Part shown: piece by piece, positions 8,958 through 35,780 of the stretch
Layout of the letters: the number at the start of each line of letters is the position of its first letter
Numbering within the stretch: the stretch's first letter is position 1
NCBI GenBank assembly: GCA_029261255.1
Contig: JAJDBQ010000162.1
Span: 1 to 64,000, forward strand
DNA: 64,000 nt
Direction of reading: 5' to 3'
Source of the DNA: Nitrospirales bacterium
GTDB taxonomy: Bacteria; Nitrospirota; Nitrospiria; Nitrospirales; UBA8639
Position numbers and translations under genes: made by a program
The notes under the pieces: generated by a model
The model's database searches: none
Told to the model about the DNA's origin: nothing
Seen by the model: only the letters and a program-made list of their open reading frames with translations

Positions 8958-9482
8958 ATGAAAACATTCTTCGTATCTATGGCCGTGACCCTCATCATGA
9001 TCGGCACTTTTGGGAGCACCGTGTATGCCATTCCCACCTTATACACGTTCAGCGGCCCCGTCACAGGCACTGCGACACTCGATTTTTCGGTGCCGGATGG
9101 TGGACCCAATTCAGTCATTAATTATACATTGAATTTCAACGGCATGACCTACAGCCCCAGCGACGTTTATACCGATTCAACACGTTTTATTTTTGACAAC
9201 GCTCCATTGGGGTTTACGGACATAATTACCTTAACATCGGGGATGGACATCCAAAACCGTATTTTTATACAAATCGTGGGACCCTTAAGCACCCCGCTAC
9301 CACGAGGAACGTGGACGGCAGCCCTGTTAACAGGTGGAACGCCACCGCCGGGAGCGAGTGGCACATTCACTCAAACCCCAGTACCTGAACCCACATCCAT
9401 GTTGTTACTTGCCTCAGGCCTCCTGGGCCTTGCGGGCTATCGGTGGCAGCAACGGCGACGTGAGGGGTCCCAAGTCGGGTAA
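8958..9482 (+). CDS. PEP-CTERM sorting-domain protein
   Basis: 174 residues, with AAGGAG 8 nt before the ATG. An N-terminal signal peptide (about 1-24, ending VYA) precedes a beta-rich, low-complexity secreted body. The C-terminus has the PEP-CTERM signal: VPEP near residue 145, a hydrophobic helix (LLLASGLLGLAG) and an arginine cluster (RWQQRRRE). Such proteins are cut and anchored by an exosortase (EpsH-type) and are linked to exopolysaccharide or biofilm matrix. No exosortase is in the window. Its last 69 bp overlap, in antisense, the 3' end of the reverse-transcriptase gene. Confidence 0.9.
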   Translation: MKTFFVSMAVTLIMIGTFGSTVYAIPTLYTFSGPVTGTATLDFSVPDGGPNSVINYTLNFNGMTYSPSDVYTDSTRFIFDNAPLGFTDIITLTSGMDIQNRIFIQIVGPLSTPLPRGTWTAALLTGGTPPPGASGTFTQTPVPEPTSMLLLASGLLGLAGYRWQQRRREGSQVG

Positions 9483-10436
9483 TCCCCCTTCCGCCCATCG
9501 CCACCACCGGGACACGTACACTCCAAGCGGGGAAGGTCGAAAAGGCTTTCCCCGCTCTTGCTCATAAAGCCGGCGTATCCGTGTCACGCATCGCTCGACT
9601 GTAGCCTTTGCCACGGTCACTTCATCTCGATTGAGATGGTACCCTAAAAAATTAAACCCTTGTTTGACCCTGCCTACCCAGGTTTTGTCGGGATGGGTGG
9701 TCAATCCCAACTGAGCCAATCCCTCCTTCACTTGGCGAATGGCCTGCTTCAGTTTCCAGCGTGTCGTGGCCATGACCAGGATGTCATCCATATAGCGCAC
9801 GTACCGTACGCCTTCCTGGGTTATCTGCTTATCCAATCTAGTCAACATCACCGCACCCAACAAGGGACTCAACGGACAGCCCAGCGGAATGCCCTGCCGA
9901 TACTCCCACACCAATCCTCCACGCTCCGCTCGTCGCTTCAAATATTGGCCGACAAGGCTGAGGATCGTGGATTCAGAAATATGTGGGGCGAGTATGTTCA
10001 AGAGTCGATGATGATCAATGGAAGCATAGTACGATTGCACATCAGTTTTGAAGACAAACGGATGCGTGGCGACGTGGGCTTATACCTGGCGTACGGCTCC
10101 TTTCAACCCTCCATGGTCTTTGAGATGTGTGCAGCGAACGGAGACGGGTAACACGGATTGCAGCACAATCGTGAGGGCTTTCATCACCAACGCATCCCGC
10201 GCCGACCAGAGATCCACCTCTTCGCCATTGGCAAGCATGGTGCGACTGAGTAACCCGATTTGATAGGTGCCGTCAGCCAGCTCTTGTTGTAGCCTGACTT
10301 TCTCGGTGGGCCACTGCCGCCGAAAATCCCACACATCCGCTGTATCGGGCCACCCCTTCCGTTGCCGACACAGCCATACATAGGCCTCGTCTAAGACCGC
10401 CTCACTGGTCAGGGTCTGCAGCAGGGTGAGGGACAT
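9414..10436 (-). pseudogene. Stand-alone reverse transcriptase, interrupted by an in-frame TAA
   Basis: One continuous frame of 341 codons encodes an RT, broken only by TAA at 10080-10082 after residue 118. The upstream part has HLKDHGGLKGAVRQV; after the stop the same frame continues AHVATHPFVFKTDVQSYYASIDH (RT motif A), GIPLGCPLSPLLG and the catalytic YVRYMDD. The layout and GCPLSP motif resemble group II-intron-like RTs without endonuclease or maturase-length C-terminus, not DGR RTs (which have a SQ motif). No intron RNA core was recognised around it. Function needs readthrough, suppression, or split translation from a GTG at 10040; otherwise it is a young pseudogene. A sequencing error is possible. 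Confidence 0.8.
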
Positions 10437-11390: not shown

Positions 11391-11678
11391 TTACTGACTC
11401 CACGGAGTCTGTTGCGCTCCATGAATCATCGCCAAAATATCAATTTGATCAGATTTGATGTAATAGATCAGACGGTAGGGCCCTTCCATGACTTCCCGAA
11501 TTTGCTTGGCCTCGGCTTCTGGGACGATACGACCAGACAAAGGAAATTCTGAAATTTGTTGCGATCGCCTCGTCAAGCGGTCGACGATTCTTTGGGCATA
11601 GCGCGGAGAACTTTGAGCAATGTAGGAATGGATGGAGCGAAGATGTTCAAGTGCGGTAACAGTCCACTGAACATTCAC
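11391..11678 (-). CDS. RelE/ParE-family toxin
   Basis: 95 residues, starting at a GTG at 11678 that overlaps the antitoxin stop (GTGA). The sequence WTVTALEHLRSIHSYIAQSSPRYAQRIVDRL and the C-terminal YRLIYYIKSDQIDILAMIHGAQ match the ParE branch of the RelE/ParE superfamily, whose members poison DNA gyrase or, in RelE, cut mRNA on ribosomes. The order antitoxin-toxin with a 4-nt overlap is the classical type II arrangement. It lies at the right edge of the accessory region, beside the divergent XRE-LexA gene. The target cannot be read from the sequence. Confidence 0.9.
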   Translation of the reverse strand: MNVQWTVTALEHLRSIHSYIAQSSPRYAQRIVDRLTRRSQQISEFPLSGRIVPEAEAKQIREVMEGPYRLIYYIKSDQIDILAMIHGAQQTPWSQ

Positions 11679-11863
11679 CGAGGAAGTCCAAATTCGGCAC
11701 GAACATCTTTCACGTCAGATGTCCGCCCTGCTTGGCTATCCGCAAGGCCTGCTTCGATAGCCTGCCGCACATAGATCTCATGCATCAAATCATCCCATGT
11801 CGAATCTTCAGGAAGCTTATCAACCAATTCATGTGCTCGATCTTTAATGTTCGATGTTTCCAT
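11675..11863 (-). CDS. Antitoxin of the ParE-type module
   Basis: 62-residue acidic protein immediately upstream of and overlapping the toxin gene. It is rich in Glu and Asp with a DSTWDDLMHEIYVRQAIEAGLADSQAG core typical of short antitoxins that pair with ParE toxins; similar 'IYVRQKIEAGLAD' motifs occur in such antitoxins. It presumably neutralises the toxin with its C-terminal half and may repress the operon, although no obvious ribbon-helix-helix is visible. ATG at 11863; GGAGATC lies about 7-10 nt upstream. Divergent from the lexA-like gene with a 200-bp shared promoter region. Confidence 0.8.
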   Translation of the reverse strand: METSNIKDRAHELVDKLPEDSTWDDLMHEIYVRQAIEAGLADSQAGRTSDVKDVRAEFGLPR

Positions 11864-12047
11864 AAGAATGCGATCTCCTCAAAAATTGTCACCTTACTAT
11901 GATGATCTTAAGATACTCAAAATAAACGAGCAAGCCTTATTATCCTACTGCGATACCTCCTTTTTCTCTCCATTTCCTGACTTATCCAACGCTTCCCCAT
12001 TGAAGAAAAATTGGCTAATCACTCTTCTTGACTCCTCCACAACCGAT

Positions 12048-12066
12048 ATGTAACCATTGGATACAT
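12048..12066. promoter_or_regulatory. Palindromic operator candidate over the lexA-like start
   Basis: ATGTAACCATTGGATACAT: 8-bp arms with one mismatch and a 3-bp centre, ending inside the ATG start (12065). Binding here would block translation start or transcription, which fits autorepression by the HTH protein. Confidence 0.5.
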
Positions 12067-12607
12067 GCTACCTAACTCCTTTCGCCAAATTCGCCAGCGA
12101 TTGAGATTGACGCAATCTCAACTGGCTGATCGCCTTCACATCACCCGCATGACGGTTACTCGCTACGAATGTGGAACGCGACGGATCCCTGGCGTGGTCG
12201 AAGCTATTCTTTCGCAACTCGACTCCCCTTCTCAGATTCCTATGGTTGGAGTCGTGGCGGCAGGAAATCCGATTGAGCCGATTGCCCAATCTGAGCTTGT
12301 GGAGGTTCCACCATCGATGTTGCCATCTGGTGACAATTTTGCGTTGCGAGTCAAAGGCGAGTCGATGCGAGACGAAGGGATTCTTCCTGGCGATCTTGTG
12401 GTCGTCCATAAACAACAGACCGCCAGAAACGGACAGACGGTGGTGGCCTTAGTGAACCATGACGCCACCATTAAGAAATATTACCTAAAAGAGAACCAGG
12501 TCGAATTACATCCAGCAAATACTACGATGGCGCCGATTATCGTCACATCGTCAGATGAGTTTGTGATCGAAGGTGTCGTAATCGGCGTCATTCGCCATTG
12601 CGGATGA
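12065..12607 (+). CDS. LexA-like repressor with XRE-type helix-turn-helix
   Basis: 180 residues. The N-terminus is an XRE/Cro helix-turn-helix (residues 5-50, LTQSQLADRLHITRMTVTRYECG), not the winged helix of classical LexA. The C-terminus is an S24 (LexA/UmuD/CI) autoprotease: the cleavage site is Ala66-Gly67 (VVAAGNP), the nucleophile Ser100 (KGESM) and the general base Lys137 (ATIKK). RecA-ssDNA filaments normally trigger self-cleavage of this family and derepress target genes. The gene is divergent from the toxin-antitoxin pair and followed after 39 bp by a small protein with a sliding-clamp motif. It may be the host SOS repressor or a phage-like regulator. A palindrome overlaps its start. 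Confidence 0.9.
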   Translation: MLPNSFRQIRQRLRLTQSQLADRLHITRMTVTRYECGTRRIPGVVEAILSQLDSPSQIPMVGVVAAGNPIEPIAQSELVEVPPSMLPSGDNFALRVKGESMRDEGILPGDLVVVHKQQTARNGQTVVALVNHDATIKKYYLKENQVELHPANTTMAPIIVTSSDEFVIEGVVIGVIRHCG

Positions 12608-12646
12608 CTACAATTTTCTTATCCATACTCACAGAAAGAGGGTCAC

Positions 12647-12913
12647 ATGTTGCCAAGATCTCAGACCTTATTCCCTGACTGCCTTCAACGACGTACTCGA
12701 ATCAGGTCTCTCTTTATTCGACGTAATAGGTTTTCCCATCGGCCTGAACAGCTGTCACTTTTTCCTTCACAAAGCTCTGATCAACAACACATACTCCCAA
12801 GCCAAGATGAATCCACATTTTGGCTTGATCGTCTTCAGAGTCTTCTTCGTCTTAAAAATATCAGCTGGCGGCGATCAAACTTGTTCAACCATAGAAATTC
12901 AATAAGCCAATAA
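12647..12913 (+). CDS. Small protein with a beta-clamp-binding motif
   Basis: 88 residues; AGAGGG lies 5 nt before the ATG. It is basic in the first 32 residues and carries Gln35-Leu-Ser-Leu-Phe39, an exact match to the QL[SD]LF consensus by which DNA polymerases and repair proteins bind the DnaN sliding clamp. No other domain is recognised. It sits 39 bp downstream of the XRE-LexA gene in the same direction, so it is probably co-transcribed and SOS-controlled. It could inhibit or recruit proteins at the clamp, or be a remnant of a Y-family polymerase or ImuB gene. Coding status is likely but unproven. Confidence 0.55.
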   Translation: MLPRSQTLFPDCLQRRTRIRSLFIRRNRFSHRPEQLSLFPSQSSDQQHILPSQDESTFWLDRLQSLLRLKNISWRRSNLFNHRNSISQ

Positions 12914-13362
12914 TTAATAGCCTTTTCGCACTTCAATTACACAAAATATAAAGTAAATCTTTAACTGTCGAGTTATTCACATGATAGGAAATTAAAGCTA
13001 ATTATTTATCCACAAGTTATCAAATAAGGCCTAATGTAAACCCATACTTCATGTATTTCAGTTCTTTGAAGCTTGCATTCAACCTCAAGATTTAAGCCAA
13101 CATGAAACCGAGCTCCCACGCACTTGCCCCACCCTATCCGAAAAATATCGCCCCGCCCAACTCCCCCACAACAAGATCCACGATTCCCCACTCGAGAATC
13201 GAGAGATACCAATGAGTTCCTCGCGGCGTTATCTCTTTTTACGAATCGCCACCTACCCACACCCACTCATTTCTCGATTGCAATATTTCACCAGCAACTT
13301 TACGTTAGGAGAAACAAGCCGGAACTGAAAAAACTAAAAGTGGAACTTCACCTAGATCGATC
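12914..13362. other. AT-rich intergenic region
   Basis: No gene. 12914-13030 is AT-rich and holds two DnaA-box-like sites (annotated). 13030-13362 holds the lipoprotein promoter; nothing else recognised. Confidence 0.5.
12973..13014 (+). promoter_or_regulatory. Two DnaA-box-like sites in AT-rich DNA
   Basis: TTATTCACA (12973-12981) and the consensus TTATCCACA (13006-13014), same strand, starts 33 bp apart, in AT-rich sequence. Both match TTATNCACA. No dnaA, dnaN or gidA gene is nearby, so an origin role is uncertain; a DnaA-titration or control site is an alternative. Confidence 0.4.
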
Positions 13363-34682: not shown

Positions 34683-35780
34683 TTACGATTTTGCGCTTGA
34701 GGCTTTTTTGGAATCAGGGCGAGAGGCGGTTGCCGACTGATCGTCTTGTGGTTTCGTCACTAACCCAAAACCTTCTCGAATTTGCGTGGTAATCGTTTCA
34801 GCCACATCAGGATTATTTTTCAAAAATGTTTTCACGGCTTCTCGCCCTTGGCCTAAGCGTTCTTCCTTATAGGAATACCAAGCCCCGGCTTTATCAATAA
34901 TCCGACGTTCCACGCCAAGATCCACCAATTCGCCAACTTTAGAAATACCTTGGGCAAACATGACATCAAATTCGGCTTGCTTAAAGGGTGGCGCCATTTT
35001 ATTTTTGACCACTTTGACGCGAACCCGGCTACCCATCACATCCTGACCTTCCTTAATGGACTCGATCCGACGGATATCTAACCTAACGGAGGAATAAAAT
35101 TTTAGGGCATTGCCACCAGTCGTGGTTTCAGGACTCCCAAACATCACACCGATTTTCATCCGAATCTGGTTAATAAAGATCAAGGAGGTTTGCGACTTGG
35201 CAATAGCACCAGTTAATTTTCGTAAGGCTTGCGACATCAACCGGGCTTGCAAGCCCATATGCGAATCACCCATCTCCCCTTCAATTTCCGCACGAGGCAC
35301 AAGTGCTGCGACGGAATCGACGACAATGATATCCAGCGCCCCACTCCGTACCAATGTTTCAGCAATTTCCAAGGCCTGCTCGCCTGTATCCGGCTGAGCT
35401 ACCAACAAATCATCCGTTTCCACGCCAAGTTTTTTGGCATAGGAAATATCCAAAGCATGCTCAGCATCAATGAACGCGGCAGCCCCGCCGGCTTTTTGAG
35501 CTTCGGCTATAGCATGTAAACACAGAGTCGTCTTTCCGGATGACTCAGGCCCATAGATTTCAATGACCCGACCTCTGGGCAATCCCCCAATGCCTAAGGC
35601 GACATCAAGCGTCAACGACCCTGTCGAAATTACTGGAACATCCGCAGGCCCTTCTGTCCCCCCCAACTTCATGATCGCGCCTTTACCAAACTGCTTTTCA
35701 ATCTGGGTCAGCGCCAAATCTAGCGCCTGTTTTTTCCCGTCCTTAGATGACTCTTTTTGCGAGGCAGTGCGATCGGCCAT
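34683..35780 (-). CDS. recA: Recombinase RecA
   Basis: 365 residues. Walker [10 protein letters not shown], Walker [11 protein letters not shown], the L1/L2 loops ([20 protein letters not shown] and [14 protein letters not shown]) and a lysine/serine C-terminal tail. RecA drives homologous recombination and triggers LexA self-cleavage. A short inverted pair TACCTGTTTGGGTA lies upstream on the minus strand (about 35832-35845) but does not match the palindrome at the lexA-like gene. Order cinA-thpR-recA is well conserved; recX is missing between recA and alaS. Confidence 0.98.

Follow-up and report, generated by a model that had tools for sequence, protein, structure and literature searches.

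LexA-headed operons of the lexA-imuA-imuB-dnaE2 type (PMC10421592, PMC6511836) encode an inactive protein of the Y family whose C terminus bears a clamp motif and a RecA-NT motif, the latter described for the tails of Y-family polymerases (PMC6511836). A related composition, DnaE2B with an inactive PolY and RecA, is known from the DinB2-like system of Streptomyces coelicolor (PMC6511836, PMC12926913). Stand-alone ImuB-C proteins, in which a C-terminal piece of ImuB is a gene of its own near lexA, consist of the beta-barrel past the RecA-NT motif (PMC6511836). Small proteins that act at the hydrophobic pocket of DnaN are represented by the clamp toxins SocB of Caulobacter and RipA of pneumococcus (PMC12795458), and in Bacteroidetes a broad SOS regulon is under a non-canonical LexA that joins an S24 autoprotease to a head resembling those of phage repressors (PMC8565304).

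The locus described here lies in a 64,000-nucleotide stretch of a Nitrospirales genome (the window; contig JAJDBQ010000162.1, positions 1 to 64,000). It encodes a LexA with an XRE head, followed by the C-terminal tail of an ImuB-like protein as a separate gene. This stand-alone tail is a new variant within the lexA-imuB-dnaE2 mutasome cassettes, present in a few marine Nitrospirales bacteria: the window's genome (G000), G005 and G009, 3 of the 21 genomes of the genus. As in the classical cassette, intact relatives carry dnaE2 behind the ImuB-like gene in a LexA-headed operon. Unlike ImuA-ImuB-DnaE2, they lack ImuB-C, their RecA-family matches comprise only RecA and a RadA-like protein, and XRE replaces the winged-helix LexA; the window has neither the polymerase-like body nor dnaE2. 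The DnaE2B systems are the closest published composition to the intact relatives, with an inactive PolY bearing a RecA-NT motif, a DnaE2, no ImuB-C and no ImuA detected, but they belong to a different phylum, and the window retains just the tail. Whereas ImuB-C is a beta-barrel, this tail comprises the last little-finger helix and strand, the clamp motif and the RecA-NT region. Its likeness to SocB and RipA lies in its proposed action; it has no antitoxin partner and no homology to them, is derived from ImuB and would be controlled by LexA.

Features of the locus (window coordinates):
12028–12033, forward strand: TTGACT, a −35-like hexamer 5′ of lexA; 19 lexA loci have TTGACA/T at this same spacing to the palindrome
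12048–12066, no strand: operator palindrome ATGTAACCATTGGATACAT (consensus TGTAACCATTGGTTACA), which overlaps with the start of lexA; kept in 19 lexA loci of the order
12065–12607, forward strand: XRE-LexA repressor/autoprotease, 180 aa, XRE head and S24 tail, from Pfam, NCBIfam and structure alignment
12617–12646, forward strand: imuB-derived leader of the tail gene with Shine–Dalgarno-like AAGAGGG; 2-bp deletion in common with G009 relative to intact imuB
12647–12913, forward strand: stand-alone C-terminal tail of an ImuB-like inactive Y-family polymerase, 88 aa, from homology and purifying selection
12749–12763, forward strand: QLSLF, predicted clamp (DnaN)-binding motif, tail residues 35–39, from motif conservation
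12800–12877, forward strand: RecA-NT-like motif in degenerate form, lacking the FG and terminal G that full-length proteins have
12944–13049, no strand: remnant of the conserved imuB–dnaE2 intergenic region with DnaA-box-like TTATTCACA and TTATCCACA, 78.5% identical to G007 over 107 nt; dnaE2 absent

A non-canonical LexA and its operator

The initial annotation read the first gene as a LexA-type autoprotease with an XRE head, and this holds. The protein matches HTH_31/HTH_3 at its N terminus and Peptidase_S24 (Pfam), scores 135.7 bits against the TIGR00498 LexA equivalog of NCBIfam (cut-off 110.95) and aligns with solved LexA structures, E. coli LexA included, with the cleavage bond at A66–G67 and catalytic Ser100 and Lys137 as claimed. 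The winged-helix LexA DNA-binding domain (PF01726) was not found in it by Pfam; with the XRE head in its place, XRE-LexA is therefore a non-canonical LexA. Position 12048, from which the pair had been dated, is the left end of the palindrome and not a start codon, lexA starting at 12065.

The palindrome sits at the lexA start, downstream of TTGACA, throughout the 19 loci. Sites with at most one mismatch to it were searched for in five genomes (G000, G010, G019, G007 and G009), each of which returned the lexA site only, and the operator is absent from recA upstream regions and promoters. XRE-LexA thus looks, from the distribution of its sites, like a repressor that acts locally, on its own operon, where the Bacteroidetes LexA controls a broad regulon. 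A broad SOS regulon of XRE-LexA was rejected, since recA is without the operator and none of the five genomes searched has a second site within one mismatch. In the window recA lies at 34941–35729 (reverse strand); the conserved TTTACCTG...GGTAAGATA element upstream of it differs from the XRE-LexA operator.

Directly upstream of lexA and divergent from it are a ParE-family toxin gene (PF05016) and a 62-aa gene overlapping by 4 nt (11391–11863, reverse strand), likely a toxin–antitoxin pair; no such frame is among those listed 5′ of lexA in G005. A reverse transcriptase (RVT_1, YMDD; 9414–10436, reverse strand) occupies two frames, 9414–10040 and 10080–10436, and is probably a broken gene. Elsewhere in the Nitrospirales, what follows XRE-LexA is another small ORF, of about 82 aa (MLATE...; L050 2022–2299, L055 2055–2303), which is conserved between two genomes and has neither a clamp motif nor a Pfam match.

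The small frame corresponds to the tail of an ImuB-like protein

The second frame begins 39 nt past the lexA stop codon and encodes 88 residues with an exact QLSLF, both frames being as first described. It has no Pfam or NCBIfam match. A six-frame search of 60 related genomes, 21 of them of the same genus, found the frame in 16 of these 21. In 13 of the 16 it forms, in gap-free alignment, the C terminus of a 401–424-aa protein (stop-to-stop frames are longer in two of the 13), and the whole imuB-like gene of these 13 comes after the same XRE-lexA, where the contig shows both genes, or shares its contig. The tail stands alone behind the same XRE-lexA in G005 and G009, as it does in the window; the frame has 101 codons in G005 (92% identity) and 105 in G009 (43% identity to the query). 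Of the relatives, G005 and G009 carry the same pair, which as such is confined to the 3 of 21. The frame and its motif are conserved more widely: QLSLF is unchanged in all 16 genomes except G002 (QLLLF), and PEQLSLF is invariant in the stand-alone forms and most full-length forms.

These alignments bear on the idea of an independent two-gene system built on an unrelated new clamp-inhibitor gene. The exact clamp motif and the position in the operon speak for such a gene; clear homology to the ImuB-like C terminus over the full length refutes it as to origin, and we leave it next to no probability. The small protein is instead an ImuB tail and the locus a remnant of a lexA-imuB-like-dnaE2 operon. 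With just the last ~88 codons left in the window, the gene is, as its sequence reads, only the tail and not an ImuB. A phage origin was rejected, no relative of the tail being present among viral contigs, and an assembly error is unlikely because the short form occurs in three separate assemblies. Short frames in other genera were rejected as stand-alone tails: that of G182 is a contig end and that of G092 a decayed cassette. AlphaFold gave no confident fold for the 88-aa tail (pLDDT 61, pTM 0.26; shallow alignment) and low confidence for the full-length protein (pLDDT 39; shallow alignment).

The full-length relatives, as distinct from the window's fragment, carry the Y-family domains IMS, thumb and IMS_C (Pfam). 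By eye, against the E. coli DinB motifs, we take their catalytic acidic residues to be replaced, with YRPGHFYLD at the place of SLDEAYLD and the first DxD gone; by its sequence the full-length parent is a catalytically dead Y-family polymerase, as ImuB is. We name it ImuB-like rather than ImuB because the ImuB-C domain was not seen in the intact relatives. Behind its gene, most loci checked have a 1,052-aa DnaE2-type polymerase (dnaE2 is present in G007, G010, G019 and G020). A PF00154 search returned RecA and one weak second match (RadA-like) per genome, a profile that a divergent ImuA could escape. In the full-length tails the clamp motif is followed by a motif resembling the RecA N terminus (RecA-NT-like; in register by hhalign, at low probability). 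G000 and G005 have lost its FG and closing G with the clamp motif untouched; G009 retains most of it, with IG in place of FG.

The window's own genome has, on contig C239 (L001 1258–3284), a second LexA-like S24 gene, not of the XRE type, with a Y-family polymerase directly behind it. This polymerase retains its acidic residues and carries QLTLF.

Traces of operon reduction

DnaE2 was not found in G000, G005 or G009, where searches returned only DnaE1 matches at ~35% identity. Behind the tail of G009 a decayed 35-aa start of dnaE2 remains, and ~110 nt of imuB-like DNA 5′ of that tail appears frame-less, being recognised mainly by its register with the tail. Directly 5′ of the tail start, G009 and G000/G005 have in common a 2-bp deletion and TACTCAC relative to the intact genes, which points to one common truncation as the source of all three short forms. 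From the lexA stop to the tail ATG, G000 and G005 are 100% identical over 42 nt. The three genomes come out together in the rpoB tree (support 91) and in the lexA tree (0.87) but not with recA alone, whose tree disagrees with that of rpoB on a single clade.

The conserved AT-rich region between imuB and dnaE2 (L067, L068 and L070) contains the DnaA-box-like sites GTTATNCACA and TTATCAACA and is partly kept in the window at 12944–13049; in the same three loci an inverted repeat, TAAAGTA-6-TACTTTA, lies ahead of dnaE2. A replication origin at the DnaA-box-like sites was rejected, as there is no GC-skew switch at them within the window. In G092 (L198 1113–4001) lexA is fused by a deletion to the imuB tail region and followed by a frameshifted dnaE2; here the same cassette has decayed independently.

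Selection on the stand-alone tail

Between G000 and G005 the tail has 12.5 synonymous and 8.5 nonsynonymous changes (dN/dS 0.18); a codon model gives 0.16 and rejects omega=1 (p=2.2e-4). In branch models on a tree of 12 sequences, the fit worsens by 9.5 lnL units (p=1.4e-5) when every truncated branch is held at omega=1, by 6.9 units (p=2e-4) when the tips G000 and G005 are, and by 2.5 units (p about 0.03) when G009 alone is. The strong signal comes from two MAGs (G000 and G005) of the three with the stand-alone form. The stem branch leading to G000/G005 evolved fast, with an omega (0.57) that cannot be told apart from 1; a partial loss of function would be compatible with this and with the RecA-NT decay in these genomes.

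The tail is 91.8% identical between G000 and G005 with 0 gaps, close to lexA (92.1%) and the next gene (91.9%); the DNA behind the tail has 85.7% identity with 6 gaps and that upstream of lexA 77% with 18 gaps. No indels or stops occur in the tail of either lineage at dS about 1. Simulated neutral frames stay free of stops over the G000–G009 divergence in 3–6% of cases without indels and in <0.5% with modest indel rates. The half of the tail with the clamp motif is better conserved than the remainder (dN 0.27 against 0.65), and all three short-form genomes have a Shine–Dalgarno site of its own in front of the tail. Given the low dN/dS, the lack of indels at this dS, the Shine–Dalgarno sites and the invariant PEQLSLF, the tail is, on the evidence of its substitutions, preserved as a protein and not simple debris. 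Indirect evidence comes from the repressor gene: lexA is under strong purifying selection (dN/dS 0.09–0.14) with its catalytic residues intact although its former targets are lost, and in G000, G005 and G009 the tail is the sole other gene remaining in the operon, which argues that the tail still does something.

A candidate internal start in intact imuB-like genes

In intact proteins, the residue at which the stand-alone tail starts is the Met after HWEVD. A scan of 12 intact imuB genes of the genus showed this Met, in every one of them, to be the only in-frame ATG/GTG behind a Shine–Dalgarno-like sequence (GGGAGG, 5 nt, ATG). The codons just 5′ of it have the lowest synonymous variation in the gene (observed/expected 0.34, with p=3.5e-4 in the segment specified beforehand and p 0.014–0.047 over the whole gene, depending on the species set), and the Shine–Dalgarno codons have 0 synonymous changes against 53.7 pairwise differences expected. 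The same sequence is also found in G055 and G040, which belong to another family, and is absent from Nitrospira proper and G028. There is no RNA structure at the tail start, folding being no better than in shuffles (z=+0.95). The sole start preceded by a Shine–Dalgarno sequence and the synonymous minimum suggest that a free tail may already have been made from an internal start before the truncation; the DnaA-box-like TTATCCACA in the same stretch leaves open another cause of the low synonymous variation. It is conceivable, though we consider it somewhat doubtful, that the imuB-like genes of this lineage are two-in-one, with a nested clamp- and RecA-binding tail subunit that tunes polymerase exchange, and that the tail and its LexA control outlived the polymerase part in G000, G005 and G009.

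Proposed function and alternatives

We favour, as the probable explanation, that the locus is what remains of an SOS-mutagenesis (mutasome) operon, and that its LexA-controlled tail docks DnaN after damage. The ancestral operon would have comprised XRE-lexA, an ImuB-like inactive Y-family polymerase gene and dnaE2 behind a single lexA operator. The ancestor shared by G000, G005 and G009 would have lost the imuB-like body by deletion and dnaE2 by decay, while the last ~85 imuB codons persisted as a gene of their own, beginning at the putative earlier internal start (GGGAGG-5 nt-ATG). For what follows we infer damage induction, translation of the tail, clamp binding and an effect on polymerase exchange: damage would generate RecA filaments that promote self-cleavage of XRE-LexA and so derepress lexA and the tail. 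QLSLF of the free tail would dock in the hydrophobic cleft of DnaN, where the tail would either rival DnaE1 and the SOS polymerase that is left or mediate the exchange between them, shifting the balance of clamp users. The partners left would be DnaE1 and the genome's other Y-family polymerase, with its QLTLF. Most likely the tail is a free peptide under LexA repression that damage induces and that binds the clamp, competing for DnaN or modulating it; the role of DnaN inhibitor or recruiter proposed at the outset is plausible.

Were the tail a non-functional remnant of imuB with its decay pending, and lexA kept for other reasons, the loss of the imuB body and dnaE2, the fast stem branch and the plainly decaying G092 cassette (the lexA–imuB tail fusion with its frameshifted dnaE2) would all be expected. 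Rejection of omega=1 on the truncated branches, the Shine–Dalgarno sites in all three short forms and a tail without indels or stops at dS about 1, beside flanking remnants that have frameshifts and gaps, make this unlikely. Slightly less probable still is that the tail recruits rather than inhibits, tethering to the clamp either RecA or the Y-family polymerase that is left. The RecA-NT-like motif of full-length tails (PMC6511836), most of which G009 keeps, and the retained LexA-like/Y-family polymerase pair with its own QLTLF would fit a tether; against it, FG and the closing G are missing from the window's genome and G005, in which the clamp motif is intact.

The DNA itself might be what is conserved, as an RNA element or DnaA-box array in which the frame is open by accident. 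The leader identical to that of G005 and the DnaA-box-like sites in the region could be read in this way, but the tail's dS of 0.25 equals that of lexA (0.27), so that the DNA of the frame is unconstrained at silent sites, and RNA folding does not exceed shuffles; we regard this explanation as very improbable.

If the tail does act as a LexA-controlled clamp-docking peptide, it would show that a mutasome scaffold has, in its clamp-docking end, a function that can be separated from its polymerase-like body, and that a single peptide can become all that an SOS repressor controls. If the internal start is true, such mutasomes hold a free tail subunit that has gone uncounted, a point of relevance to how translesion polymerases get on and off the clamp.
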